Below, one piece after another: positions 1-25,846 of a stretch of 59,569 nucleotides of DNA. This DNA comes from Herpetosiphonaceae bacterium (lineage in GTDB: Bacteria > Chloroflexota > Chloroflexia > Chloroflexales > Kallotenuaceae). Both the position numbers and the translations under genes were made by a program. A model generated the notes under the pieces. It was given only the letters and a program-made list of their open reading frames with translations, did no database searches and was not told where the DNA came from. The DNA is taken from the NCBI GenBank assembly GCA_013821605.1, contig JACDGP010000016.1:1-59569 (forward strand), read 5' to 3'. The stretch's first letter is position 1, and every line of letters begins with the position of its first letter.

Positions 1-1169
1 CGGCTCATCAGGACAGCACAGCCCAGACCGAGCCATGGACCGAGCAGCAGGGCTACACTGCTGAAGAACAGCCACTCCCAGCCAGTAATCGCCATGATCT
101 GTATAGCTGGCACCCCACGCGTTTGGAGCAGCGCCACCTCGCTGCGTTGCCCGTCAACCAGCAGCTGTGCTACCAACAGCGCGAAATAGATGACGAGGCC
201 CAGGATAGGCAGACTATACACCAGCAACTGCGCCGTGAGGGTAGCAGATGTGCGTTGATACAGCCGCAGTGCTTCAGCCGGACTCTGCTCGATGCTGAGT
301 CCGGGCACCATCCGAGCCACAACGGTTTGCAGGTGATCAAGCCGCGTCAAGAGAGGTAGGGCTTGGGCAGCAGTGAGGTGGGTATCGTCGAGTTGGGCAA
401 ACCACGCCACCTGGCCCACGCCTTGAGGCACCAGGCGCGCGACTGGTCCTGTAAAGGATGCTTCGGGCAGGAGCAGCAGATCATGAAAGGCACTGGGTGG
501 AAAGAACCAAGTTGGATCATGCGCATTCCGTGCCATCCATACGGCCGTTACTTCGACGGTGATGGGAGTGGTCGTGGCCTGATCAGGCCGCACCTGGAGA
601 CGATCCCCGACGTTGAGCCCCAGTTCATCCGCGAAGTCGCGCATGATCATGACTTGGAGTGGCTGACGTGAATCAGCACTCGCAACGGGAAGCTTGCCCT
701 CCATGATTCGCATCGCAGGTTCCAAGCTGCTCACAAAGCCGAGCGTGACTTCCTTCGTACCAGTGGTTGCGCTCCCTGGTGTGACCGGAACAAGCAGCTG
801 GAGCGGGATAGTGCGGGCATGCCGCCCGAGGCTCTGGACAGGCAGGCCCAGGGCTGGGAGTCCCTGCGCGGTGATAAAGCTATCAACCTGTTGGATACGT
901 TCCCAGCCTAACGGTGTGTTCCACATTCCGACATAGCGCACCAACACGGCGAAGGGCGACCGTCCAACTTGCTGCGCTTGCTTGGTAAGGGTTGTCTGCA
1001 GCAGCCGCAGGCTCGCCCCTTCGGCATAGACCGGAATGCAGGTTACGACGGCAACGGTGGCGACGAGGGCCAGTATTCCACAGATAGCAAGGCCGAAATG
1101 CGTTCGCAGACGTTGTGCGGCAAGCACACCAGGTGCTAAGGAGCGTTGGATCAGGCGGGGCACAGTCAT
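1..1169 (-). CDS. FtsX/MacB-like ABC transporter permease (3' part outside window)
   Basis: Reading the minus strand from the ATG at 1169 gives an open frame of about 389 codons that runs off the left edge. A transmembrane segment lies near residues 23-45 (LAICGILALVATVAVV...). It is followed by a large extracytoplasmic domain resembling the MacB periplasmic core, then a second hydrophobic segment (LLVYSLPILGLVIYFALLVA) and the QRSEVALLQTRG stretch typical of FtsX domains. There is no N-terminal ATPase domain, so this is a stand-alone permease and its ATPase would have to be encoded further left. The start codon overlaps the stop of the HlyD-like gene in an ATGA, so translation is coupled. 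Likely role: membrane half of a MacAB-type exporter working with the upstream lipoprotein. The class is fairly sure; the substrate is unknown. Confidence 0.8.
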   Translation of the reverse strand, partial: MTVPRLIQRSLAPGVLAAQRLRTHFGLAICGILALVATVAVVTCIPVYAEGASLRLLQTTLTKQAQQVGRSPFAVLVRYVGMWNTPLGWERIQQVDSFITAQGLPALGLPVQSLGRHARTIPLQLLVPVTPGSATTGTKEVTLGFVSSLEPAMRIMEGKLPVASADSRQPLQVMIMRDFADELGLNVGDRLQVRPDQATTTPITVEVTAVWMARNAHDPTWFFPPSAFHDLLLLPEASFTGPVARLVPQGVGQVAWFAQLDDTHLTAAQALPLLTRLDHLQTVVARMVPGLSIEQSPAEALRLYQRTSATLTAQLLVYSLPILGLVIYFALLVAQLLVDGQRSEVALLQTRGVPAIQIMAITGWEWLFFSSVALLLGPWLGLGCAVLMS

Positions 1170-2326
1170 TGCCCCACCACCGTCATACCAGCGCTGAGCC
1201 CATCCACAATCTCACTGCTCTCCGGGGTTTCGATCCCAAGCGTGACCGTGACCCGGCGTTCGCGCTCCCCTTCCTGCACGACCACAAAGCGCCGTCCCTC
1301 AAATGAACGGATCGCGGCTGGGGGGAGCCATAAGGCATCCGCTCTACGTTCCAGCACGACCCGCATCGTGGCGGCATCGCCCGGTTGCCACGCGAGTGGA
1401 TGGGGGTCGGTGAGGGCGAAGCGCGTTGTTTTATCCGCGTCATGCACCGTTCCACTGCCACCCTGTCCCAATGGCGCTGGCAACTGGCGCACCGTCGCCG
1501 CGAGGGGTGCCTCGGGGTGCGCCAGGAGCCGAATTTCCGCCGCTTGACCTTGGACTAGTTGACTCATCTGATCGCCCGGCAGTTCGGCGGCCACCTCTAG
1601 CGTCGCGGGATCACCCACTTCCATGATGGGCGCAAACGCTTGGATGTCGTCACCAGGGGCGATTGCGAGGGCCAGGACCTGTCCCGCCTGCTCCGCTCGC
1701 ACTTGACCAGCCTGGACTTGCTGTTGAGCCTGAGCCAACACACGTTGGCTTCCTTCGACCGCTGTCTGCTCCACATTGAGCAGGGTGGCTTGTGCTTCCT
1801 CCAGGAGAAGCTGCTGGCGCTCAACCACCCGCTGGGCTTTGCGGATGGCATACGCACTCGTGCCTTGGACATGATTTAAGTCATCTTGGGCATCGGCAAG
1901 CTCGAGCTGTGCCCGGCGAATGGCACGCGTCCGCTGCTCCTGCATACTCGTGAGCGTCCGCTGGGCGGCGGCAACTGCATCTTCGGCTGCGCGCAACGCG
2001 GCCTTCGCATCGGCTTGCAGCAGTTCAGCCAGCACCACCCCCGCTTTGACCCGGTCACCAACCTTGACCTGCACCTGCGCCACTCGTCCGGTCCGTCCAA
2101 ACGATAGTCGGGCCAGATCACGCGGCGTCACTCGACCATTCGCCTCAAGGCTGCGTTCAATAACGCCACGTTGGACTTGATAGCGCGGGCGGGCGAGCGC
2201 TGGGTCGGGCGGCAACGGAGTCGGGGTCGGCAGCGCGGCTTGCCGGGTGCCTCCGGTACCACAACTCGTGAATACAACAAGCAGCAGCACGCCGACCCCC
2301 ACCGCGTGAAGGATCTTCCGCTTCAT
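1166..2326 (-). CDS. MacA/HlyD-like membrane fusion lipoprotein
   Basis: The protein has 386 residues. The chosen start (ATG at 2326) gives MKRKILHAVG..., a hydrophobic stretch and a lipobox ending at Cys22 (VFTSC). It also makes an ATGA overlap with the preceding anti-sigma gene; a longer reading frame would add 25 residues of non-signal sequence. After the signal come a barrel-sandwich half (RYQVQRGVIERSLEANGRV), a long Ala/Gln/Arg-rich helical hairpin (about residues 105-205) likely to form a coiled coil, the second barrel half and a C-terminal beta domain (ALWLPPAAIRSFEGRRFVVV). This layout is that of periplasmic adaptor proteins. As a lipoprotein it would sit on the outer face of the membrane next to the FtsX-like permease. 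Membership in the adaptor family is clear; the exported compound cannot be read from sequence. Confidence 0.85.
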   Translation of the reverse strand: MKRKILHAVGVGVLLLVVFTSCGTGGTRQAALPTPTPLPPDPALARPRYQVQRGVIERSLEANGRVTPRDLARLSFGRTGRVAQVQVKVGDRVKAGVVLAELLQADAKAALRAAEDAVAAAQRTLTSMQEQRTRAIRRAQLELADAQDDLNHVQGTSAYAIRKAQRVVERQQLLLEEAQATLLNVEQTAVEGSQRVLAQAQQQVQAGQVRAEQAGQVLALAIAPGDDIQAFAPIMEVGDPATLEVAAELPGDQMSQLVQGQAAEIRLLAHPEAPLAATVRQLPAPLGQGGSGTVHDADKTTRFALTDPHPLAWQPGDAATMRVVLERRADALWLPPAAIRSFEGRRFVVVQEGERERRVTVTLGIETPESSEIVDGLSAGMTVVGQ

Positions 2327-5277
2327 CGCGGGTCGAAGCCCTGATAGTTGGGGTCCACCTGTATGGTGCAGACGGTCCGGGCCGCACCACCCCTGACACA
2401 CGCGAGATACGCGACCGTCTTCTGTTGGGCCTCAGCGAGGGCACGTTCGAGGGGGGCGCCCTGCAGCGCTTGGTCCAGCGCACGCCAGAGCCAGTAATAA
2501 TCTATTGGTGATTGGGCGGTGGCGTCCCCTGCCGTGATGGAACTGGTGGGACGTTGCAACGCCGCTACATAGGCGTGGTACACATCAACGGCCCCCGCTG
2601 GCGCTGCCTGCTGAAACGCGTCACTTTCGGCAACCGAGCGACGGGCTGGAAAGGCTCCCACCAAGCCGGTGATATCCGCACTCACATACTTCAACCACGC
2701 CCAGCAGGCCTGGGCATGGGGTGTTGTGGCCGTGATATAGAGGCCACTGAGTTGCAGATCATCCGGCGTGACACCGCTCTGGTCAAAGGGCGGGGGGGCG
2801 ACGGCGGGGGTAAAGCTCCGTCCGGTCGTGCCACTGCCCAACCCCGGTCCCGTCAGACTCATACTGAGCCAGAGCCCAACGCGACCCGCATTAATCAACG
2901 CTGACGTCGTATCTGGTAGGGAGTCAGCGGTGTAGCCCGGCAATTGCTGGTGGGGCGAGGCAGTGCGCAGAAGGTTCAGGTAGGTACGGAGCGCCTGAAC
3001 CTCCTGGGGAGCAGTAAAGCTAGGCTGCAACGTCGCGCCACTGCCAGTCGTAACGGACGTACCCAGGCGGCTGAGAAAGAAGGGTACCTCAACGATGGGC
3101 CGATCCGCTAAGACATAACCATACTGCTTGGGTGTAGCGCTCCCACCTGAGAGCTGCTGGCTCGCGTGGAGTAGGTCAGTGATCGTCCAGGCAGCGGTGG
3201 GCTGAGCGATGCCAGCGGCAGCGAAGGCCGCCTGATTATAGGCCACGCTGCGCAACCGCACCGTATAGGGTAAGGCCCGAAGCCTGCCGCCCTGTCGAAA
3301 CGGCGCGAGCCACGTAGCAGGGTAGTCATCCCTGGCGAAGGTCGGATCCGCGTCGATCAAGGGTTGCAGATCGAGCACCTGGGACCATTCATCCGCTGCG
3401 GGCGGCAGAGGGTAATAACGTGCGAAACAATCGGCATTGGCACTTAGCTCAGCAAGTTTGGGATCGAGGCTGGTGGTGATCTCGACGTGGATTGTTGGAT
3501 TGTGTTGGCTAAATTGGCGCGCCACGGCTTTGAGTTGCTCGGTATTAGCTCCCCACGTGCTGAAAGTGATGACCGTCGCACCACTAGCGGGGGACGGGTC
3601 CACGGGGGTGGCGACCACAAATGGTGTGGTCGTGACAGCGGGCGAGGTTGATGGCTTGGCCTGAGCTTGCTCGGCGACCCAGGTGGCTTGGGCGGCCTGC
3701 AAGGCTTGCGTCGGGGCTTGTTGATCAGTGACCACTGCATTCCAGGCCTGCCCAAAGGCTCCGACCAGCCTATCATCCGCTTGCGTGGCGGGCAGGGATG
3801 TTGGGTGGTCCAGGGCAAACCGGACGGCAGCAGCGGTGGCAGGGTCGAGCTTGCGCCAGTAGCCGCTCTGTTCGGCCACCGATTTGCGCGCTGGCAGCAC
3901 CGTCACACTGTCGGGTCGCTCAGGATCATCTTGTTGACTCAAAAACCGCAGCCAACGCCATGCCGCCTCGGGGTGTTGCGTCCCACTGCTCATCATATAC
4001 CCGGTGTTCGGCTCAATGGGCAAGGCCGGTTGCGGCAGGGTGCCGACCGCGAACGGGAGGTGCGGCTGCGCTCCAAGCAGGCTTGTCGGCCAGATCCCGG
4101 CCCGTCCAGCGCGCACGAGGCGCGGAAATTCACTGCTGGGATCGAGATCACGCCCTTCGGCGTGGGTCCAGGGATAGATTGCGTCTTGTATCACGAGGGT
4201 GTGGACGCGCGTCAGCATATCAACGAAGGCCGACCCTTCCAATCCTGCGCTCTGCTGTGCCGCAGTTGCCAAGTCCAGTTTGGCATTGGCGCGCAGACCC
4301 GGTGCGACCACATACGGATTGCCGTCGAGCAAGCCGAAGGTTGGCGTAGCAGGATCGTGTTGATCAGCGAGCTGTTGGGCGGCGGTGAACACATCATTCC
4401 AGTTCCAGCCCAGCTGTGGGGTGGGCAGGTTGTGCTTGGCCCACAGCTCTTTGTTATACGATAACAGCCCAATGGACTGCCGCGTTGGGAGCAGATAGAT
4501 GCTGCCCTGAGCACCGGCACCCTCCAAGACGCCCGGGTAATAGTCCGCGCGGTCAAAGGCCGGATCGGCGTCAATGAAGGGCGTGAGGTCACGGAAGTAA
4601 CCTTTGGTCATGTGTTCTGGCAGCACCACAAATGGCAGGGCCGTATCTGCCGCACCCGCGAGTTGGCGCATGAACAGATCAAGATCGGGGATCGAGGAAC
4701 CGCCATCCGGTTTGATGGCCATGGTGCCTTTTGCGGCCGCATTCAGTGATACTGGCACCACCCGGACGTCGGGGTTGGTTCGATTGAACAGGTCAACAAG
4801 ACGCTGATAGCGTTCCCGATCTGGTTGGTCGAACCAGGGGGCAGCAAAGGTGATCGTCGTGACCCTAGCGGGGCTGGTTGACAAGGACGGGGCAGCGCTG
4901 GTCGGGATGGCAACGACTGCTGCAACGGGCGTTCCAGGGGGTGGAGGTGCCACACGCTGCGTCTGGGATGGGAACTGGCTGATAAGGAGACCAGCGATGA
5001 GTACGGCGAGGAAGACACTGCCGAGTGCGACAGGCTTCCACATAGAACGACGCGGCATACGATCCTCCAAGGTAGCAAAGACAGCCGTGGCAACGCGTGC
5101 TGGTGGTCGAACGGGGGGCAAAGGCACGTTCCGCAGAACCTGCTGGATATGCTGTATGCGCTGCCAATCAGCAGTACACGTGGGACAGTGCGCAAGGTGG
5201 AGTTCGAGATCGCGTTGTTGAATGAGCGACAGGGTATGGCGCGTCGGCAACAACGTGCGTGCCTCTTCACAGTGCAT
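2323..5277 (-). CDS. Anti-sigma factor fused to two tandem extracellular solute-binding domains
   Basis: The protein has 984 residues. The N-terminus (MHCEEARTLL...) has the zinc anti-sigma signature H27-x3-C31-x2-C34. A single transmembrane helix follows at about residues 82-100. Outside the membrane a Pro/Ser/Thr linker leads to a first family-1-type solute-binding domain (about 140-555, ITFAAPWFDQPDRERYQRLV, later GRAGIWPTSLLG and AAWRWLRFL). A second linker leads to a second such domain (about 575-960, ITFSTWGANTEQLKAVARQF, then GRVGLWLSMSLTG and ACWAWLKYVS). The gene starts in the stop codon of the ECF sigma gene (TAATG), so both are made together. Known: anti-sigma proteins of this type hold the sigma at the membrane until a signal arrives. 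Inferred: the two binding domains are the ligand sensor. Ordinary binding proteins are about 400-450 residues and carry no cytoplasmic part, so this fusion is unusual. Confidence 0.85.
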   Translation of the reverse strand: MHCEEARTLLPTRHTLSLIQQRDLELHLAHCPTCTADWQRIQHIQQVLRNVPLPPVRPPARVATAVFATLEDRMPRRSMWKPVALGSVFLAVLIAGLLISQFPSQTQRVAPPPPGTPVAAVVAIPTSAAPSLSTSPARVTTITFAAPWFDQPDRERYQRLVDLFNRTNPDVRVVPVSLNAAAKGTMAIKPDGGSSIPDLDLFMRQLAGAADTALPFVVLPEHMTKGYFRDLTPFIDADPAFDRADYYPGVLEGAGAQGSIYLLPTRQSIGLLSYNKELWAKHNLPTPQLGWNWNDVFTAAQQLADQHDPATPTFGLLDGNPYVVAPGLRANAKLDLATAAQQSAGLEGSAFVDMLTRVHTLVIQDAIYPWTHAEGRDLDPSSEFPRLVRAGRAGIWPTSLLGAQPHLPFAVGTLPQPALPIEPNTGYMMSSGTQHPEAAWRWLRFLSQQDDPERPDSVTVLPARKSVAEQSGYWRKLDPATAAAVRFALDHPTSLPATQADDRLVGAFGQAWNAVVTDQQAPTQALQAAQATWVAEQAQAKPSTSPAVTTTPFVVATPVDPSPASGATVITFSTWGANTEQLKAVARQFSQHNPTIHVEITTSLDPKLAELSANADCFARYYPLPPAADEWSQVLDLQPLIDADPTFARDDYPATWLAPFRQGGRLRALPYTVRLRSVAYNQAAFAAAGIAQPTAAWTITDLLHASQQLSGGSATPKQYGYVLADRPIVEVPFFLSRLGTSVTTGSGATLQPSFTAPQEVQALRTYLNLLRTASPHQQLPGYTADSLPDTTSALINAGRVGLWLSMSLTGPGLGSGTTGRSFTPAVAPPPFDQSGVTPDDLQLSGLYITATTPHAQACWAWLKYVSADITGLVGAFPARRSVAESDAFQQAAPAGAVDVYHAYVAALQRPTSSITAGDATAQSPIDYYWLWRALDQALQGAPLERALAEAQQKTVAYLACVRGGAARTVCTIQVDPNYQGFDPR

Positions 5278-5810
5278 TATCTATTCTCCTGTTGATATAG
5301 CGCACCAAAGCGCACCGACGCTCGGTAGAGGCGGACGCGAACCGTACCGGGTTTGTCCCCGGTGAGGTGCCCGATTTCGGTGGGCGTGAGGCCAACATAG
5401 TTGTGGAGGAGCAACACCTCAGCTTCTTTGCGTGAAAGCTGGGCAAGGCATGCCCGCATGCTCTCCGACGTGGCAACATCGTCCTCAAAACGTGGTGCTG
5501 CTTCATAGCGACTGAGCTGAAACCAGCGCAGCCGTCGCTGCCGCCGCAAGACGTTATACGACAGGTTGACGGCAATTCGGTAGAGCCAGGCGAAGGGATT
5601 CTCGGGAGGAGGATGGGTAGCAAGGGCACGCCATGCTCGCAGAAAGGTGTCTTGGAGGATGTCAGCAGCTTCTTCCCGCTCGCCCACCAGCCGTAAAATA
5701 TGGCGATAGAGTGGCAGTTCATACTCCTGAAACCACTGAGTGATCAGCTGGTGCTGTTCACTCGCACTCAAACAGGTAACGACCGGCAGGGCCATACTCA
5801 CATCTTTCAT
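5277..5810 (-). CDS. ECF-type RNA polymerase sigma factor
   Basis: The protein has 177 residues, normal for the ECF group. Region 2 is seen in YRHILRLVGEREEAADILQD and in TFLRAWRAL, followed by PFAWLYRIAVNLSYNVLRRQ. Region 4 is seen in LSRKEAEVLLLHNYVGLTPT and in EIGHLTGDKPGTVRVRLYRA, a helix-turn-helix that reads the -35 element. The stop overlaps the start of the anti-sigma gene by one base. The start at 5810 was taken because it is the first codon of the frame; a second ATG at 5795 (MALPVV) is also possible and neither has a strong ribosome site. The sigma factor probably drives this four-gene operon and perhaps other targets; a candidate ECF-like promoter lies just upstream. Confidence 0.93.
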   Translation of the reverse strand: MKDVSMALPVVTCLSASEQHQLITQWFQEYELPLYRHILRLVGEREEAADILQDTFLRAWRALATHPPPENPFAWLYRIAVNLSYNVLRRQRRLRWFQLSRYEAAPRFEDDVATSESMRACLAQLSRKEAEVLLLHNYVGLTPTEIGHLTGDKPGTVRVRLYRASVRFGALYQQENR

Positions 5811-5829
5811 CGGTGTCTCTATCTATAAA

Positions 5830-5856
5830 GACACGCGAGAAGTGGCGAGCGTTACA
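5830..5856 (-). promoter_or_regulatory. Candidate ECF-type promoter of the sigma operon
   Basis: On the minus strand TGTAAC (5856-5851) is followed after 15 bases by CGTGTC (5835-5830). This resembles the AAC / CGTC pattern bound by many ECF sigmas, at near-normal spacing and about 20 bases before the start codon. It overlaps an inverted repeat GTGTCT...AGACAC (5813-5834). Autoregulation is an inference; the match is short and could be chance. Confidence 0.3.
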
Positions 5857-16560: not shown

Positions 16561-18957
16561 TTAGCGCGTAATCAGGAGTTTGCGGAGCGTGTCGTCACTG
16601 AGCGTTAGCCGGGCAACGTGACTGCCACTCTGACCATCCGCAGTAATGAAGCTGCGCTGAGCCGAGAAGACCAAGGTATCACCGGGACCGCCTTTGGCGC
16701 TACGGTTAGACCGCCCCTGACCGTCAGCGACTAGAGACGCCTCCTGAAGATATGGGACGAATTTGCTGATCAGCCGGCGTGCGACGGCCAAGGATTGTCC
16801 AGGCAAGAGGCCCAAGGGCACGGGTTGGCGTCGCACAAGCGGCGCGCTCAACGCCGGCAGCGCGGCTTTGGCTGCAACGACGGGCCGCGCATATGGTGTG
16901 GCCCAGGGATCGCCGAGCAGTACAAACGACAGCAGGGTTTTGGCATCGTCCGGATCAAGATAGCCCTGTCCCAATGCAGCCGAGCGTGCCAAACCATCGC
17001 GGGCCAGGAGTAGCGCGCGCCCAACGGGATGGCCGCGTCGCAGATTCGCGAGCAAATGGTTGACCAGAACGTCGGCTCCTCCCAGTGGAAGGCCGATCGA
17101 GCCGTAGGACGTCGCCGTTGAGCCGACGAAGGCGAGGGCATTGCTGGCGAGCAGCCGTAATGCCAATGCGTCTTGCGTGGAGCGGCCAGCGATTTCGGCA
17201 CCGTAGCAGGCCTCGCTGACGCAGATCGCGTTGGGATGGAGTGGCACCACATCGCGCGGTGTTAATGCCACTGGCAACGGCTCGTTGGGCGGCGCGTCCG
17301 CAGCCTGCCCGTACCAATTGGCACCGCCAGGCAAACCATGCAGATTAAAATACAGCAGCCGCTGCGCGTTCCAACTCGTGGTCGCGCTGGATGGAACGGG
17401 TGGTGGACAAAGCACCAGCGGCTCGGTGCTCTTCAAGGCGTTGTACACGGTCTGTGATGGCAACTGCCAAGCCAGGGTTGAGGCAGCCCAACCCTGGATG
17501 GGGCTGCCCGGCGGTATAGTTCCACGGCGTAGCCGGAGCAGTGGGAAAAACGTTGCCGGGCTGCGTGGGCTTAGCCAGCCATGGTGGAAGTCGACCGAGC
17601 GTTGCAAGAGTTCCACAAGCAAATGACCACCGGTCTTGCTATCATCCGGCATGCGGGCAACCACGACATCTGGAATCAGGTAGCTGTCGCCGGCACAGCC
17701 GTAGGGATTATCAGAAAGAACGTGCAGGTCGGCATCCGTCGTCGGATTCGGCAGTTGGTGGAAGGGGATAATCGCATCGCCACCGATCAGCATGATCGCG
17801 TCGAGATGCTGGCCCTTCGCCGTGAGCCGCGCATGCACAGCCCGCAACAGCTCGGTAATCGCCTCGGGGCTTGGCTGCACGACCGCTGCCACATCACCGA
17901 ACACAGGTAGTGGCTGCGGATCATCTACCACGACGACATGCGCCTCCACGTCACGAGCTGTCAGGGCGGCTGCCCAATTTTGCAACAATTGCAGGACCCG
18001 CTCGACGTCGTAGGGCATTTGCACTGCGAGGTTGCCGCGATGCGTCACCAACAGTGCTGCACCATGACCATCGCCGAGCGACGGCGGAGTCGCACCCAGT
18101 AGTCGCTGGGTTGCACGCTCGACCTCCGCGAGTGCTACGGCTGAAGCTTGATCGGATTGGGTGCGGGACCGCAGTTGGATTCCCGTTGGTCCTTTTGCTG
18201 CGCGTAAGCGTAGTGGCTTCATTGAGCGTGGGCCTTCGGCCCAGGGATAGGCTGGTAGCATATCTTGCAGGTCATGCACCCGCCGGGCAAGGCTCGCTGG
18301 TATCGGTACTTCAGGCAATTCCGGCAGCAGAAAAGGCGGTTGATCGGGGGCGAAACAACGCTTGGCACTGAGGCCACCCGGATCGGAGGCAACCGCTTGC
18401 TTGATTAACCTGATTAGGTCACCGCGATGAACGACCAGTGCTGCCATCAGCCACAGCGCGGGAACGGGCACCGGGACCTCATCAAGCAGCGGCAACAGCA
18501 GCGTATGGGCCTGCTCCGGCGCGTTCAGGCGACGTAGGGCTTCGGCGCGTAAGATCGTCCACTCATGCCACTGCGGATGGCGCTCGACCAGGATGGTGAG
18601 TCGGCCTAAGGCCAGGTAAGGTTTACCACGGCGCAGATCAGTGACGGCCGCATCCTGCAGCAAGGCCGCACGTTCCGCCGCCATTGCTTGTTCGGCTCCG
18701 GCCGGTAACAGGGTGGCCAGTCCCTGCCACGCTTCACTTTCCAGCGGATCGCGTCCTGCTGCTAAGCGAAAGGCTTTGATGGCGCCGGCGGTCTCACCCT
18801 GGGCCTGCGCCAGCATAGCCCGGACGAGCAGGAATGAGCTGGCATGCGGGGCGAGCAGGCCGAGCGCTTCGATCGCCTGCTGGGCATGTTCAACTTCACC
18901 CAGCAGTATCAACAATTGTGCGGCCGATAGCAGCTGGTCGAGGCGACAGGTCTCCAT
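16561..18957 (-). CDS. TPR protein with C-terminal clan CD (C25/gingipain-like) cysteine peptidase domain
   Basis: 798 residues. Residues 1-190 are TPR-like helical pairs (AQQAIEALGLLAPHASSFLL and similar). From about 295 onward the protein resembles the C25 peptidase fold: ALLVTHRGNL, LDAIMLIGGDAIIPFHQLPN, the IPDVVVARMP strand, then the catalytic dyad His540 (LLYFNLHGLPGG) and Cys584 (AICVSEACYGAEI), followed by NALAFVGSTATSYGSIGLPL and GRALLLARDGLA. The His-Gly and Ala-Cys-Tyr-Gly contexts are those of caspase-like proteases. A C-terminal beta segment follows (about 700-798). No signal peptide, so probably cytoplasmic. It starts 3 bases after the giant NTPase gene ends, so production is coupled. 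A CHAT peptidase is the nearest alternative; the IPDVVVARMP region favours C25. Probably the effector protease of this operon. Confidence 0.75.
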   Translation of the reverse strand: METCRLDQLLSAAQLLILLGEVEHAQQAIEALGLLAPHASSFLLVRAMLAQAQGETAGAIKAFRLAAGRDPLESEAWQGLATLLPAGAEQAMAAERAALLQDAAVTDLRRGKPYLALGRLTILVERHPQWHEWTILRAEALRRLNAPEQAHTLLLPLLDEVPVPVPALWLMAALVVHRGDLIRLIKQAVASDPGGLSAKRCFAPDQPPFLLPELPEVPIPASLARRVHDLQDMLPAYPWAEGPRSMKPLRLRAAKGPTGIQLRSRTQSDQASAVALAEVERATQRLLGATPPSLGDGHGAALLVTHRGNLAVQMPYDVERVLQLLQNWAAALTARDVEAHVVVVDDPQPLPVFGDVAAVVQPSPEAITELLRAVHARLTAKGQHLDAIMLIGGDAIIPFHQLPNPTTDADLHVLSDNPYGCAGDSYLIPDVVVARMPDDSKTGGHLLVELLQRSVDFHHGWLSPRSPATFFPLLRLRRGTIPPGSPIQGWAASTLAWQLPSQTVYNALKSTEPLVLCPPPVPSSATTSWNAQRLLYFNLHGLPGGANWYGQAADAPPNEPLPVALTPRDVVPLHPNAICVSEACYGAEIAGRSTQDALALRLLASNALAFVGSTATSYGSIGLPLGGADVLVNHLLANLRRGHPVGRALLLARDGLARSAALGQGYLDPDDAKTLLSFVLLGDPWATPYARPVVAAKAALPALSAPLVRRQPVPLGLLPGQSLAVARRLISKFVPYLQEASLVADGQGRSNRSAKGGPGDTLVFSAQRSFITADGQSGSHVARLTLSDDTLRKLLITR

Positions 18958-18960
18958 CAG

Positions 18961-21900
18961 CTACAACCGGACTCCATGCTTGACCGCCTCGCCGCCCAGA
19001 CTCATGAGCAGTTGGATCGCCTCACGGAAGTTGCGGTTGAGCTTGACAGCTTTGCGCAGCGCCGTGAGCGCTTCCAGCCAGCGCTTCTGAGCTCGGAAGA
19101 TCTGACCCTGGAGGTAGTAAGCTTCGGCCGACTCAGGATCATACTCGATCGCCAGATGGACTGCCTTTTCCGCTGCATCATACGACCTTCGCTCGAACAG
19201 TACGGCGGCACGCAGCCGGTGCAACTCGGCGAAATGCGGCTCAATCGCCAGCCCTTCTTCGATAGCCTGGTTCGCCTGGTCCAGCCAGCGAAGCTGGATA
19301 TCGGCTTCTGCCTCGAGATAACAGGCTTCCAGACTTGTATCATCCTGCTCCCGTGCTTGACCGGCATACTTGGCGGCGGTTTTCCAGTCCTGGTTCTGCA
19401 GTGCGAGTTCGGCTAGGACGAGGGCTGCTGCAACATTCGTCGTGTCACGCGCCAGCGCCTGCTCCGCCGCTAACCGAGCTTCATCCGTGCGTCCAAGCTG
19501 GAGCATACAATGGCCACGCCCCGCTTCGGCTGCTGCTATCGTAGCCTGCGATGTGGCAGAGCGAGCGGCCCGATTATAGGCTGTCAGCGCCTCGACCCAG
19601 CGCCCCTGCTCGTTCAACAGAGTTGCCAACGCGGTGTGGAGGATATGCACGTTTGGGTAGCGCTCGATTGCTGCTTCCAAGGTTGCTTCAGCAGTCAGGG
19701 TATCGCCCACCTGGGCCTGGGTGCGCGCTAATGCCGCCCATGTTTCCGGACCCGCATCAGGTGTCGTCACGGCGACCTGTAGCTGTTCCAGCGCTACGTC
19801 ATGCTGACCATGCTCCGCTTGAAGCTGCGCTAGCTCGGTGCGCCATGCCGACATGCTTGGTTCGACGGCCAGGGCTTGCTCAAGCAGCCGGATGCGTTCG
19901 CCATTGGTATGGAGCCGTGAGAGCCGGTACCAGATTTTGCCGTTGCCGGGCTCACGTTCGCTGGCGCGGCGCAACATCTGAATGCCGCGATCCAGCCGTC
20001 CGCGACCAATTGCGACGTCTGCGTATTCCAGGAGCCAACTTTGGGGTACTTCGCCGGCGACGGCCCGTTCCCAGGCTTGGAGCATCGCTGACACATCATC
20101 ACGGCGACCGGCAACTTGGGCCATCTGGTACCATGCTTCGGCATTGGTGCGGTCGATCTGTACGGCGCGCTGGATCGATACCCAGGCATCATTTAACTTT
20201 TGCAGGCCGAGCTCGGCGGCGCTACGTGCCGTCCAAGCGGCGGGTCGCGCCTGATCGAGTTTGGTCGCCTTTACCAGATGCTCGTATGCCATCGTAACCG
20301 ATCCGGTGCGGAGCAGCGCGGTCCCCAGCCGCAGGTGATGGGGACCCCATTCGGGCTGCTGCGCGGCCGCACGGGCATAAAATTGGACCGCCAGCGGCAC
20401 GTCGCCTTGTGCTTCACGCGCTTGGCCCAGCAGACTCGCCGTAGCCGCAGTCGCTTGCCGTCGATCGGCCACCTCTAGTGCCTGCGTGGCAGCGGCAGTA
20501 TTTCCGAGCTTCAAGTGGGCAATCCCGAGGTGCCGCGCGGCGTTCGCCTGATCCTCCTGTGACAACGTCGTGTCCTGTGCGGCTCGTTCCAAGAGCGGCA
20601 CAGCAGCCGTTGTGGCACCTGCCAGCAGCAATGTCCAGCCATACTCAGATCCCCAATGCGTATGGTCTTGGATACGAGCAAGGATGTCCCGAGCTTCAGC
20701 CAGTTGTGGGGCGTCAATCTGCCCCGGCACCTCGTCCTCACTGACCGGTTCGTAGGGTCGCCGCAAAGCCAGTGCCAGCGTACCTTGCGCCTCCGGGCTG
20801 TCTTCTTGGGATGCAATCCGCCCCAAGCGCACCGCCTCCTTCCATTCGCCCCGCTGGAAGGCGAGTTGTCCTAGTCGTAAAGCCGCTTGTGCGTCTACGG
20901 GACGGCCCTGGGAGACACGCTCAAAGTCATGGCGGGCACGCTGACCATCGCCCGTTCGGAAGGCGATTTCACCGCGCAGGCGCTGATAACGCACGTCATC
21001 TGGCTTGAGCAGGAGTGCCTGATCGATAGCGTGGCGTGCGTCGGCGAGCTCGTTCTGCTCAAATGCGTACTCGGCCAGACTGCCCCACAGGCCCGCATCT
21101 CGTGGTTGGGCTTTAACAGCATCGCGTAGCATGCGCAGTGCGCGTTGGGGATCACCGGCCGCACGTATATGCTGAGCCAAAACACGTAACACCTCCGGAT
21201 GGTAGCGATCACGCTGGGCAGCTTCCTCGATCGACCGCTGCGCGAGCTGTTGATCGCCGGCCGCTGCTGCCACTTGGTACATTAAGAGCAAGGTTGGGAT
21301 GTCGGCCTGGCCATGCTCAATGATCGGTTGCAGGGCCTGGACCGCAGCAACAGTATTACCGGACGCATGTTCAGCTCGTGCGAGCAGCGCCCGGAGTGCC
21401 GGCGATTGTGGGTGGTGATGTAACGCGACGGCTGCTGCATGGCGGGCCTGACCGACATGTCCGGCTGCAAGAGCACTTTGGGCTAGCGCAGCCCAAACGC
21501 CCGCATCTTCGGGATGTTCGGCCAGGAATGCTTCCAACTGATCCACGATAGCCTCAGGGCTACCCCGTTGCAGATGGAGGTTGGCCAGGGCTAACGCTGC
21601 CTCACGGTCGTCGGGAGCCAGCGCGGCGGCCACTTCCCAGGCCCGCAATGCATCATCAAGGGCTTCGTCTGCAGTGTAAAGGCGGGCCAGCGCGCGCTGG
21701 ATCGGGGCATGGTCGCCTTCCATGGTCAGTGCTTGATTCAAGGCATGCAGGGCAGCGGGTCGCTGGCCGGTTGCCTCTAGGGCTTCGGCCAGCAGCAGCA
21801 GCCGCTCCGGCTTCGGTTCGCGGGCATTCGCGGGTTGTAAAGCCTTAATTGCCTCCGCCGGCTGCTTGATCTGTAAAAGTGCTTCGCCCAGTGCGGTTAA

Positions 21901-24900
21901 CCACGTTGGGTGGGCATCCTCCGCGCTGCTGGCACGTCGCAATACATCGACAGCGGCCTGTGCTTCACCTGTGCGTAGCAGCGCAATACCCAAGTCGGCT
22001 TGACACTCTGGATGATCGGGAACTGCGTCATAGTAGCTGGCTGCAATAGCCCGGGCTTCGGTCCATTTCCCCAGATCTCTGGCCGCCGCGTAGCGCAGCC
22101 GGTCAGCACGAAGACTGGTGCCTGCCAGTGGCTGCAGCACGGCCTGGGCTCGTTGCGGCTCGCCATCTTCGAGAAATAATCGTCCAAGATGGAGCGCGTG
22201 CTGCTGATCACCAGGAGCTAGGCGCTGAGCCTGTTCCACATACGGAATGACACGGCCAGGACCTAAGCGTGCTTCGAGTGCGTGGGCCAGGCCACTCCAT
22301 GCTTCGGGACGGTGCTTGTCCACGCATAGCGCCTGCTCAAAAGCCAACTGTGCCGCCTCTGCATCCTCCATCTGGAGCAACACCCGCCCATGTTGAATAT
22401 GAGCTTGGGCACTCGGAAGCGAACGTAACGTTGTTTGTACAGCCTGCAAGGCTTCCTGCGGCCGGTTGGCTGCCAGGAGTGCCCGGCTAATGTCGAGCAG
22501 CACCTCGGGGTCGCCGGCACCGTGCACATGGGCCGTTTCGAAGGCCGCCAGTGCTTCTTCGATATGACCCGACTGCAACGCCATGCGGCCCATTTGGTGT
22601 TGCAGGTGCGCATTGCGCGGCTGTTGCGCTGCAGCCGCCCGTGCGATCCGCAGGGCTGTTTCAGGATTGCCGATCTGACCATAGGCACGGCTCAAATCAA
22701 GCTGGACACTCGGGTCATTTTGCGGCAGCGCTTGGAGTAAAGGTAGAGCTTCTGCCCCTGCTCCAATATCGAGCAACGCCCCTGCAAACTCATGGACAAT
22801 GGGTGTGCGCTCGCTCAAAGGTATGCGCCGGAATGCACGTACGGCATGGACCGGCTGTTGCATCTGGAGATGTAATCTACCCGCCTCGGCCCAAGCGTTC
22901 GGGCTATGGCGCGCACGCAACACTGCCAGAGCCAGTGTATGGCGCGCTAGCGTCATGTCATTGAGGAGCCGTGCTACACGCGCCTGCGCCAGCAAGACCG
23001 GCTGTGATGGCTGCGTGGAGAGTGTAGCAGCTGCACTGTACGCATCCAGCGCAAGCTGTAGGCTCCCTTGCTGTTCAAGGCAGCGCCCCAGATCGTAGGC
23101 AATGCGGCCATCTGACGGTAGGGCCGCCCGCGCGCGTTCAAGCAGCGAACGAGCGGTCGCTAGGTCACCGACTTCGAGCAGGGCCCAACCAGCCTCCGCC
23201 ACGATCTGGGGCTCGGCCTCATGATGTGCCGCAGTGCGATAGTGTTGTGCGGCTCGTCCGTGGTCTCCCAGCGCCCAGTATGTGCGTGCCAGTTCGAGCC
23301 CGGTCGTACTCGTTGCACCGGACTGCTCAGCATGCGTTAACGTTCTCAAAGCTTCGGGCAAGCGGCCGGCTAACCGTTGGAGCATGCCTAGCTGTGTCCA
23401 TGTTGCCCCATCAGTGGGCAGTAGATCGGCCAGCCGCTGTGCTGCACTCAAGGCTGTTTGCTGCTCGTCATCCTGGAGTGCGAGCTGGAGGAGACCGCGG
23501 TACGCCGTGACCGATTGCGGATCATAATCCAAAGCCGCCTGGTAGGCACGCCGAGCTGCATCTGCTCGCCCATTCCGCTCTTCAATGCCGGCGATTTGGA
23601 TATACGTTGTCGCTGACGCTTGCCCCATTGCTTCGACGCGTTCCAGCTGCTTCAGCGCAGCGGAGTCTTGTCCTGCCTGGAGCAGAAGCTCCGCTACTTC
23701 GGCGGCGACGCCTGCCGTCGCGATCCCCTGGACATCGAGGTCACGTAGCAGTCGACTGGCTTCTTTGCCTTCTCCTAACAGCCGCAGCGTTCGGGCTAGG
23801 GCGAGTACATAGTTGCCTTCATTGGGAACCAACATTGCTGCTCGTCGGAAATGATCGCGGGCTTGAGTCAATTGCTGCCGATCCTCGTACATCTGTCCCA
23901 GCGTAAAGGCCGTCGCCGCCAGTTGGCGATGATGCTCGCTCAGGAGATGCTCCAAGGTCGCGGTAGCAGTATCGGCTTCACCCAAGTCCCGGCAAACTTG
24001 GGCCAACGCTTGTTGGTAGTGGAGGTTGGTAGGATCGGTGCGTAATGCTTCGGTAAAGGCGGCTTGGGCCTCGACAAGCTGAGCGCTTTGCTGTAAAAGT
24101 TGGCCGAGCAAGCCCCACAACTGCGGATCATCATGCCCCTGATTGAGCACGCGGCGCAACAAGCGGATCGCAACATCACGCGAGCCATATTGCGCCCAGA
24201 CGCGACCGAGGGCGATCGTTGAGTAGTCGCTCAATGCTGGGAGGTGGTCAAGAATTTGTTGTGGCTCTAGATTAGCATCCAGGACACCTTGGATGGCCCG
24301 CCACGCCTCGGCAGCGATCAGTTCATCAACGATCTGATTACCTGCACCTATGCCGCAACGCAGGGCCAGCGCCCATGGTGCCTTGCGGCTCAAGTCGACG
24401 GTTGAGATTTCGTTGCGGTAGGCATACGCAAGATCGGCGAGCAGCGGTGAGCGTAGCTCATAGCTTTCACCATTACGGGTTTCCAGCAATGCGATCGCTT
24501 CGATCAGCGCCATCGTGTCGGCAGCTTGTACATTGTTCTGCTGCGCGAAATCACGGGCAATACTGACTACTTCATTGTGGTGCAGGGTGGACATCTGCTC
24601 CAGCCGCTGGACCATGCGCTGTAAGAGTGGTCGCAACATTGTCTCGTCAAACGGAAGGTAGTGTGCCTCCGCTGCTTCGGCGGCTACTGCGGTATACCAT
24701 TTGATGAGCAACGGTCCGGGCAACTCCTGTCTGGTCGTGGTCTTAAGGACGTGCTGCAGTGCATGGAGCCACCGTGGTCGGCGAGCAAGCTCGACCGCTC
24801 CGGGAAACTTCAGTAGACGCTGGCCGCTCGTAGTCATCGCCGGCTCAAGCGCGCTTGCCACCTGCGCATCTGTCCAGGGTCGAATGCGCCATGGTGGCGC

Positions 24901-25500
24901 ACCTAGCGCCTGAAACCAGGCTTCGAAGAGGCTCCAGCTCTCACTTCTGCAGGCGATCAGCCAGCGTCCATGTGGGGCAACCGTGTTGATCGCACGGCGA
25001 ATCGTAGCTAGCCCCGTCATTTGTTCTGAAGGTTGTAGATCACTCAAGGCGTCAATGAGCAGTACACAGCGCCGGCGCAGCACGAGTTCGGCCAGCGCTG
25101 GCCCGCGCCGGCGTGCTTGAGCTGCGAGGCTTGCTTCAATGCTATCGGAGAAATAGGCGAGAGGTATGTACAGGGGGAGTGGTGCCTGCGAATTGGCGAC
25201 AGCTTCTTCCGCCAGTTGCCGTACCAGTTGGCGCACCAGAGTCGATTTGCCGCTGCCGGCCCCACCAAACAGGAGCAGTCCACCTGATCGGTCGAGCGCG
25301 TTCTGCACCGTAACTCGTAAGGCCGGACTGCTCTGCCCGTCCGCTACCTCACCTTGTCGTTCGGCTACGGGATCAAGCTGCTGTTCCAGCCATAATGGTT
25401 GAGCAAGCTGCACTGGCTGTAGCGTTGGCTCAGCTAGAAGTGCTCGCAAATAATGAGCAACCCAGGGCTCCTCCGAGGCGGTAGGCGATAGAATCTGCAC
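18961..25500 (-). CDS. Giant NACHT-type STAND NTPase with very long TPR array
   Basis: 2179 residues. GTG at 25500 was chosen because AGGAGG (25512-25507) lies 6 bases before it; the frame stays open 24 codons further but without a ribosome site. Residues about 60-270 form a P-loop NTPase of the NACHT kind: Walker A GGAGSGKST (79-87), Walker B CVLLIDALSD (about 145-154) and GRWLIACRS as sensor strand. A helical region follows, with DLSRKAPWALALRCGIGAGN near its end. From about residue 430 to the end the protein is tetratricopeptide repeats (A-x-x-x-x-G-x-A-x-x-x-x-x-x-A-L-x-x-x-P spacing), roughly 45-50 units by length. STAND proteins sense a ligand through repeats and oligomerise on nucleotide binding. 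Between a small membrane protein and a caspase-like peptidase, it is the likely sensor of the operon. Confidence 0.85.
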   Translation of the reverse strand: MQILSPTASEEPWVAHYLRALLAEPTLQPVQLAQPLWLEQQLDPVAERQGEVADGQSSPALRVTVQNALDRSGGLLLFGGAGSGKSTLVRQLVRQLAEEAVANSQAPLPLYIPLAYFSDSIEASLAAQARRRGPALAELVLRRRCVLLIDALSDLQPSEQMTGLATIRRAINTVAPHGRWLIACRSESWSLFEAWFQALGAPPWRIRPWTDAQVASALEPAMTTSGQRLLKFPGAVELARRPRWLHALQHVLKTTTRQELPGPLLIKWYTAVAAEAAEAHYLPFDETMLRPLLQRMVQRLEQMSTLHHNEVVSIARDFAQQNNVQAADTMALIEAIALLETRNGESYELRSPLLADLAYAYRNEISTVDLSRKAPWALALRCGIGAGNQIVDELIAAEAWRAIQGVLDANLEPQQILDHLPALSDYSTIALGRVWAQYGSRDVAIRLLRRVLNQGHDDPQLWGLLGQLLQQSAQLVEAQAAFTEALRTDPTNLHYQQALAQVCRDLGEADTATATLEHLLSEHHRQLAATAFTLGQMYEDRQQLTQARDHFRRAAMLVPNEGNYVLALARTLRLLGEGKEASRLLRDLDVQGIATAGVAAEVAELLLQAGQDSAALKQLERVEAMGQASATTYIQIAGIEERNGRADAARRAYQAALDYDPQSVTAYRGLLQLALQDDEQQTALSAAQRLADLLPTDGATWTQLGMLQRLAGRLPEALRTLTHAEQSGATSTTGLELARTYWALGDHGRAAQHYRTAAHHEAEPQIVAEAGWALLEVGDLATARSLLERARAALPSDGRIAYDLGRCLEQQGSLQLALDAYSAAATLSTQPSQPVLLAQARVARLLNDMTLARHTLALAVLRARHSPNAWAEAGRLHLQMQQPVHAVRAFRRIPLSERTPIVHEFAGALLDIGAGAEALPLLQALPQNDPSVQLDLSRAYGQIGNPETALRIARAAAAQQPRNAHLQHQMGRMALQSGHIEEALAAFETAHVHGAGDPEVLLDISRALLAANRPQEALQAVQTTLRSLPSAQAHIQHGRVLLQMEDAEAAQLAFEQALCVDKHRPEAWSGLAHALEARLGPGRVIPYVEQAQRLAPGDQQHALHLGRLFLEDGEPQRAQAVLQPLAGTSLRADRLRYAAARDLGKWTEARAIAASYYDAVPDHPECQADLGIALLRTGEAQAAVDVLRRASSAEDAHPTWLTALGEALLQIKQPAEAIKALQPANAREPKPERLLLLAEALEATGQRPAALHALNQALTMEGDHAPIQRALARLYTADEALDDALRAWEVAAALAPDDREAALALANLHLQRGSPEAIVDQLEAFLAEHPEDAGVWAALAQSALAAGHVGQARHAAAVALHHHPQSPALRALLARAEHASGNTVAAVQALQPIIEHGQADIPTLLLMYQVAAAAGDQQLAQRSIEEAAQRDRYHPEVLRVLAQHIRAAGDPQRALRMLRDAVKAQPRDAGLWGSLAEYAFEQNELADARHAIDQALLLKPDDVRYQRLRGEIAFRTGDGQRARHDFERVSQGRPVDAQAALRLGQLAFQRGEWKEAVRLGRIASQEDSPEAQGTLALALRRPYEPVSEDEVPGQIDAPQLAEARDILARIQDHTHWGSEYGWTLLLAGATTAAVPLLERAAQDTTLSQEDQANAARHLGIAHLKLGNTAAATQALEVADRRQATAATASLLGQAREAQGDVPLAVQFYARAAAQQPEWGPHHLRLGTALLRTGSVTMAYEHLVKATKLDQARPAAWTARSAAELGLQKLNDAWVSIQRAVQIDRTNAEAWYQMAQVAGRRDDVSAMLQAWERAVAGEVPQSWLLEYADVAIGRGRLDRGIQMLRRASEREPGNGKIWYRLSRLHTNGERIRLLEQALAVEPSMSAWRTELAQLQAEHGQHDVALEQLQVAVTTPDAGPETWAALARTQAQVGDTLTAEATLEAAIERYPNVHILHTALATLLNEQGRWVEALTAYNRAARSATSQATIAAAEAGRGHCMLQLGRTDEARLAAEQALARDTTNVAAALVLAELALQNQDWKTAAKYAGQAREQDDTSLEACYLEAEADIQLRWLDQANQAIEEGLAIEPHFAELHRLRAAVLFERRSYDAAEKAVHLAIEYDPESAEAYYLQGQIFRAQKRWLEALTALRKAVKLNRNFREAIQLLMSLGGEAVKHGVRL

Positions 25501-25519
25501 CGGCACCCTCCTGTCCTCG

Positions 25520-25846
25520 TTAGCTATGGCTGGCAGTGACCGCCATCCAGAATGCAATGCCACAGACCCCAACGCCGAGCAGACATAGGAATGCTCCGAC
25601 CCCCACAGCGGTTTGGATCAACTGTGTCACTGTTTGTAACAGGCGCGTAGTACCATCGATAGCTGCAACTACCGTCTGATCGGTCAACGCTTTACCTGCG
25701 AGCTTCGGCGTTTGGGCCGATAAGACCTTGAGCGTTTCCTGGTATTCTTTAGCGACAATAATAAAGAAGCCACTAACTATCATGGCCACCCCAACCAGGA
25801 ACAGCACACAGGCCATACCGATTTCTACTTTGGCAACAAATGACAT
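25520..25846 (-). CDS. Small two-helix membrane protein, first gene of the NTPase/peptidase operon
   Basis: 108 residues. Two hydrophobic helices lie at about 8-31 (IGMACVLFLVGVAMIVSGFF) and 80-102 (VGVGAFLCLLGVGVCGIAFW), joined by a roughly 48-residue soluble segment (AKEYQETLKVLSAQTPKLAG and TQLIQTA). Both helices are glycine- and alanine-rich, which favours helix packing. The start follows AGGAAG at about 6 bases. The stop is 19 bases before the giant NTPase gene, and the promoter at 25949-25977 serves all three. I do not recognise a family. It could be a membrane anchor for the complex, or a pore or substrate acted on by the peptidase; nothing in the sequence decides this. Confidence 0.7.
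   Translation of the reverse strand: MSFVAKVEIGMACVLFLVGVAMIVSGFFIIVAKEYQETLKVLSAQTPKLAGKALTDQTVVAAIDGTTRLLQTVTQLIQTAVGVGAFLCLLGVGVCGIAFWMAVTASHS

Follow-up and report, generated by a model that had tools for sequence, protein, structure and literature searches.

An anti-sigma factor whose outer part consists of two solute-binding protein (SBP) domains is encoded in the window, by which we mean the whole 59,569-nucleotide stretch of DNA analysed, from a Chloroflexales bacterium, between the gene of an ECF sigma factor and the genes of an FtsX-type ABC transporter. The arrangement is best explained, in our judgement with a little better than even confidence, by a transporter-linked, autoregulated receptor anti-sigma factor that has the tandem SBP of the FtsX-type ABC transporter as its sensor; through the fusion protein, the transporter's own genes would probably be turned on either by a molecule from outside or by the transporter. 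The pairing of an ECF sigma factor with an anti-sigma protein carrying two solute-binding domains, as put forward in the original prediction, was borne out, since the fusion is an unbroken frame of 984 residues that overlaps the sigma gene by one base. The domain layout, the gene overlaps, the operon extending over two contigs, the shared promoter-like sites and the replacement of a lipoprotein signal can be read from the sequence, and the case for a transporter-coupled receptor anti-sigma factor is, in our view, a credible one. The features are listed in Table 1.

Table 1. Features of the sigma/anti-sigma/transporter locus in the window.
Feature	Positions	Strand	Basis
FtsX-family ABC permease, first 389 aa, cut by contig end	3..1169	-	homolog match
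HlyD/RND-type adaptor (membrane fusion) protein, 386 aa, lipobox-like TSC	1166..2326	-	HlyD_D23, HlyD_3, RND_mfp
Anti-sigma/receptor fusion, ZAS - membrane helix - SBP - SBP	2323..5277	-	open frame 984 aa, Pfam, structure model
Second SBP_bac_1 domain, residues 566-984	2326..3582	-	Pfam, alignment A2, PDB, model, Foldseek/VIA
First SBP_bac_1 domain, residues 138-545	3643..4866	-	Pfam, PDB sequence matches, model
Membrane helix, residues 83-98	4984..5031	-	model; alignment A2
ZAS domain, residues 1-75, C3, H27-x3-C31-x2-C34	5053..5277	-	alignment A1; PDB profile matches
ECF sigma factor	5277..5810	-	177 aa; Sigma70_r2 + Sigma70_r4_2 Pfam
Putative ECF-type promoter TGTAAC-N18-GTCTTTATA	5824..5856	-	exact pattern search, genome

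Two SBP_bac_1 stretches of the fusion scored above the Pfam cut-off (E 5.5e-22), and both sequence and fold are those of type II SBPs. The structure prediction that had been proposed for the binding part yielded an AlphaFold model (33 sequences, mean pLDDT 80.5) with a helix at residues 83-98, two separate SBP folds and three ZAS helices, the latter at low confidence (block means 43-63). The membrane helix is preceded by RMPRRSMWK, which places the N-terminus inside, and in alignment A2 it occupies the position of the lipoprotein signal of relatives. The PDB sequence matches of the first SBP domain were sugar-binding proteins, as were the Foldseek matches to the SBP fold (E 7e-17) and those of VIA (Z 29.4, rmsd 3.6, 366 aligned); the VIA matches all fall on the second SBP domain, with other parts of the fusion not represented. 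The two domains are 27% identical to each other, and Cys 617, 858, 960 and 970 of the second were invariant across the 18 sequences of alignment A2.

The gene downstream, encoding the adaptor, overlaps the fusion gene via ATGA and in turn overlaps that of the FtsX permease. Comparison of the adaptor with the PDB gave MacA/MexA-type matches. The window part of the permease, for which FtsX Pfam fell below its cut-off, corresponds to residues 3-383 of a 947-aa homologue, and the start of another contig, C97, to residues 384-945; C97 thus encodes the remaining permease (564 aa), followed by two LolD/MacB-type ABC ATPases. The joint between the window contig (C48) and C97 is based on frame and homology, as their ends overlap only weakly, by 4 bases. 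Read across both contigs, the operon order is sigma factor, ZAS-SBPx2 fusion, adaptor, FtsX permease, ATPase and ATPase, and the last four are those of a MacAB-type system in one operon, with its permease split by the contig end. The partner genes of the fusion are of FtsX type and not binding-protein-dependent importer permeases; nor does the fusion resemble a secreted or lipid-anchored importer SBP, as it has no lipobox and possesses the ZAS domain and membrane helix. The same genome encodes a second operon of adaptor, FtsX permease and two ATPases, without a tandem SBP (L136:5428-10945, G000:C51), which adjoins dehydrogenase E1/E2-like genes.

Tandem SBPs of about 850 aa, whose alignments start near residue 87-140, are common in some families among 100 relatives, and a search of genome contigs with a 5-row alignment located the layout in several Chloroflexota groups. 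The SBP duplication thus predates the fusion, being old and common to the whole family, and the two-domain layout is therefore not a special feature of the fusion receptor. A strict lipobox was present in 65 of the 75 N-terminally complete tandem-SBP relatives and the ZAS motif in two, while five of the remaining eight carried a near-lipobox by eye. The neighbourhood of these genes was enriched in transporter components, with an adaptor, FtsX permease or ABC ATPase no more than two genes away at 23 of 63 tandem-SBP loci; for background genes the figure was 18 of 217 (Fisher p 3e-7). In family f3, which by its inferred name is Roseiflexus-like, SBPx2 is regularly followed by the adaptor and permease (and ATPases). 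No other tandem SBP of the same family was found by a search of the fusion's genome, and plasmids gave partial matches of the single-SBP kind only. As the fusion takes the SBP slot of the relatives' operon in a genome where no second tandem SBP of the family was found, its lipoprotein signal has been replaced by the ZAS domain and membrane helix, and the binding domains probably stayed with the transporter.

These findings divide the receptor idea of the original prediction into two parts. A membrane helix does indeed link the SBP domains to an anti-sigma domain, and such capture has recurred (L233 and L176, described below), whereas the view that they had left ABC transport could not be upheld, given an adaptor/FtsX-permease/ATPase operon that is also used by lipoprotein relatives and a genome in which no other tandem SBP of the family was found. 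A receptor pure and simple, its SBP pair binding an outside sugar-like ligand with no transport role and the transporter being a mere target of the sigma factor, is accordingly rather doubtful in our estimation: the closeness of the SBP folds to sugar-binding proteins, the free exchange of outer domains in the sigma clade and the capture of SBPs of another family by an anti-sigma factor, a kinase and a cyclase would all agree with it, but the fusion gene lies exactly in the slot of the relatives' transporter SBP, and no second tandem SBP of the family was found in the genome.

Several tandem-SBP genes were encountered in other settings. One (L120:1-2726, identical to L214; G077:C553) overlaps by 4 bases the gene of an ECF sigma factor from another group, with no anti-sigma gene adjoining. 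At a further locus (L034:7400-11036, G046:C9) two tandem-SBP genes flank the frameshifted remnant of an ECF sigma factor, and the first of the two is likewise broken. A distant tandem-SBP gene (L178:2679-7885, G311:C177) is followed on the same strand by a response regulator and a histidine kinase, which suggests that it serves as a sensor in a different way. Arrays of four tandem-SBP genes on short stretches (L213:2-9110; L227:3732-16784) suggest local duplication, and a 1043-aa frame (L220:2436-5567) with a KamA-type radical SAM-like start and a tandem-SBP family match further on is either a fusion or an assembly error. Elsewhere in the window, the minus strand encodes a 2203-aa STAND-type protein with NACHT and TPR domains (18961-25572), beside a 798-aa frame with no Pfam match (16561-18957).

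In the mechanism that we propose for the transporter-linked receptor, the N-terminal ZAS domain would keep the ECF sigma factor inactive in the cytoplasm, and the membrane helix would place outside the two sugar-SBP-like domains that relatives tether by lipid. The trigger may be a ligand, probably sugar-like, in one or both clefts, or the state of the adaptor/FtsX permease touching the SBP part; by altering the outer part, it would cause the ZAS protein to be cut or rearranged. Intramembrane proteolysis of the ZAS protein is plausible, and as members of the site-2 protease family M50 are present in the genome, these could perhaps bring about release of the sigma factor. Once freed, it would transcribe from its own promoter the genes of the sigma factor, anti-sigma/SBP fusion, adaptor, permease and both ATPases. 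Ligand sensing, proteolysis and the double duty of the fusion as transporter SBP and anti-sigma factor are predictions made on sequence grounds. The outer part could conversely be envisaged as a docking platform, with envelope or flux sensing in which transporter activity, or stress on the transporter, triggers release without a small-molecule ligand. A co-sensor role is known for FtsX-type ABC systems, as in BceAB-BceS, and the adaptor, permease and ATPase genes come next in one overlapping operon; we nevertheless consider sensing of this kind unlikely, as both SBP folds look intact at good model confidence and loss of binding is not indicated.

Autoregulation is suggested by the sites upstream of the sigma gene. 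The pattern TGTWAC-N18-GTCTTTATA occurs at exactly two sites in the 5.88 Mb genome, upstream of the window sigma gene and of a paralogous sigma gene on contig C202, with a spacer of 18 bases at both; having been derived from its own two sites, the pattern gives in this count a statement of specificity and no independent test. Its presence before the window sigma gene and the paralogue, and at no other site of the genome, thus points to autoregulation of the sigma factor from a putative promoter of its own. The motif GTCWTWW was found within 90 bp upstream of 9 of 10 clade sigma genes, compared with 2% of random 90-mers.

The sigma factor scored above the cut-offs of Pfam (Sigma70_r2, E 9e-15; Sigma70_r4_2, E 1e-9) and of the NCBIfam profile sigma70-ECF, and has regions 2 and 4 only, at the size of about 170-200 aa typical of ECF (group 4) factors. 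Comparison with the homologue in G005 indicates that the inner ATG at 5795 is probably the start, giving a protein of 172 aa; the stop of the sigma gene and the start of the anti-sigma gene have one base in common (TAATG). The nearest sigma homologues are 46-54% identical, and every intact one examined adjoins a gene for a ZAS protein. In ten aligned N-termini (the window protein and nine homologues, alignment A1) C3, H27, C31 and C34 were invariant, and a profile of these sequences matched RsiW (5wuq), RslA (3hug) and DdvA (8rlz) in the PDB. The fusion thus has the N-terminal helical domain of class I (ZAS) anti-sigma factors, related to RsiW/RslA, with the Hx3Cx2C motif and an upstream ligand, even though zf-HC2 was sub-threshold at 15.3 bits against a Pfam cut-off of 22.2. 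It also behaves as such a factor in adjoining its own sigma gene, with a 1-nt overlap, and co-varying with it: over ten pairs, sigma and ZAS identities were correlated with r 0.89 (Mantel p 1e-4). We predict that the ZAS domain of the fusion binds and inhibits the sigma factor. That the ZAS domain and helix serve merely to anchor the SBPs, anti-sigma function having been lost or never present, is a reading that the weak Pfam score and a ZAS-SBPx2 protein without a neighbouring sigma gene (L233) might invite, but one that the invariant zinc ligands, the overlapping sigma gene, the sigma-ZAS co-variation and the RsiW match render very improbable.

The outer parts of the ZAS proteins beside the nearest sigma factors are diverse, comprising a PQQ-like propeller (G000:C202) and an LCP domain (G076), and in G027 and Herpetosiphon-like genomes (name inferred) the ZAS partners carry unassigned outer domains. 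On these comparisons the sigma/ZAS pair is a member of a Chloroflexales clade with swappable ectodomains (propeller, LCP and others). The LCP (LytR-CpsA-Psr) protein is encoded at L104:5775-7504 (G076:C301), beside a sigma gene of the same clade.

Captures of SBPs by other regulators were also found. Two further proteins combine a ZAS domain with SBP domains. The first, in an Anaerolineae MAG (L233:4784-7579), has 931 aa with a ZAS domain, a membrane helix and two SBP_bac_1 domains, and no adjoining sigma gene. A single origin of this protein and the window fusion was rejected as a joint clade (p_AU 1.06e-05), L233 being a long branch; the two ZAS-SBPx2 fusions appear to have arisen independently, unless that long branch misleads. 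The second (L176:2632-5315, G137:C8) joins a ZAS domain to SBP_bac_5 and is overlapped by its own ECF sigma gene, in a genome of another Chloroflexota order than the window (probably Ktedonobacteria). The nearest relatives of this protein are plain SBPs, one of them adjoining an importer permease, and among its SBP_bac_5 relatives are one protein kinase fusion and one fusion with HTH and cyclase domains. In different genomes of this one Chloroflexota order (L280:502-3282; L278:574-3585; L284:1396-4650) the same SBP_bac_5 type was thus seen, besides the ZAS protein, as kinase and HTH-cyclase fusions and, in a close relative, as a plain SBP adjoining an importer permease. A search for VFT kinases found little. 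A ZAS-SBPx2 protein joined to a window-type sigma factor was found in only one genome and was not met with in 100 relatives or a 400-genome sample of the phylum.

The frame of the fusion withstood scrutiny. A missed frameshift joining separate genes, against which the original prediction had cautioned, was looked for and no break was seen; frameshift or read-through of two genes could be rejected, as relatives cover this length in a single frame. More than 50 relatives conserve the frame between about residue 115 and its end, and this conservation, together with the sigma/ZAS co-variation, makes the fusion more than a chance reading. That faulty assembly or binning brought an anti-sigma gene and an SBP gene together, as a single draft genome of 259 contigs and 100 relatives without the fusion could bring to mind, is hardly conceivable against a continuous frame with its joint in the membrane helix/linker, tight overlaps on both sides, a promoter pattern common to a paralogue on another contig and a second independent fusion (L233).

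To our knowledge, the signals of ECF sigma systems are mostly unknown. The sensor of the fusion is a fold with screenable ligands and the product of its operon is evident, and signal, receptor and output could thus be tested together. A bolder interpretation, which we advance only tentatively, is that of a bifunctional "transceptor", the transporter's substrate-binding subunit being the inhibitor of its sigma factor, with Chloroflexota repeatedly turning ABC binding proteins into receptors (anti-sigma, kinase and cyclase); ligand loading or transport state would then be read directly as transcription. Solute-binding domains have been captured independently by anti-sigma factors, and those of the SBP_bac_5 type by a kinase and a cyclase as well, which suggests that there is a general way for transport proteins to become receptors. 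The analysis also brings to attention a little-described Chloroflexales ABC system of tandem SBP, adaptor and FtsX permease.

Membrane ZAS anti-sigma factors, RsgI proteins with carbohydrate-binding modules, tandem-SBP importers and SBP-type kinase sensors are already known. We found no description of an anti-sigma factor with a solute-binding domain in the open-access library that was searched. BceAB-BceS flux-sensing modules resemble the window in tying the operon of an FtsX-family ABC transporter to its own regulator, which we take to be a kinase there, with no SBP. BvgS-type histidine kinases (tandem Venus-flytrap) likewise have two tandem SBP-like domains outside and one output inside, the output presumably being a phosphorelay and the SBPs of another family. 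MacAB-like FtsX ABC systems (PMC5768738) and LolCDE share with the window a HlyD-type adaptor, an FtsX-family permease and LolD/MacB-type ATPases in one operon. The Chloroflexales version has a tandem SBP; a family-1 SBP is not known from MacAB-like systems or LolCDE. GlnPQ importers also carry two SBP domains in tandem, but these are fused to an importer permease (PMC8025302), whereas those of the fusion are joined to an anti-sigma domain and have an FtsX-type partner. The RsgI anti-sigma-I factors of Clostridium thermocellum bear carbohydrate-binding modules and are thought to sense substrates (PMC4711584). Like the fusion, they are membrane anti-sigma factors with a sugar-recognising outer domain. 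Their sigma type, anti-sigma domain and binding modules are, we assume, different, and they presumably have no transporter SBP. Members of one anti-sigma group are reported as a rule to keep the same fused domains (PMC7406223), whereas those of the clade described here differ between close relatives. With class I (ZAS) anti-sigma factors of the RsiW/RslA type the fusion shares a cytoplasmic Hx3Cx2C zinc domain, one membrane helix and a gene overlapping that of the sigma factor, but its outer part, in contrast to theirs, amounts to about 850 residues with two solute-binding domains and is encoded in a transporter operon.
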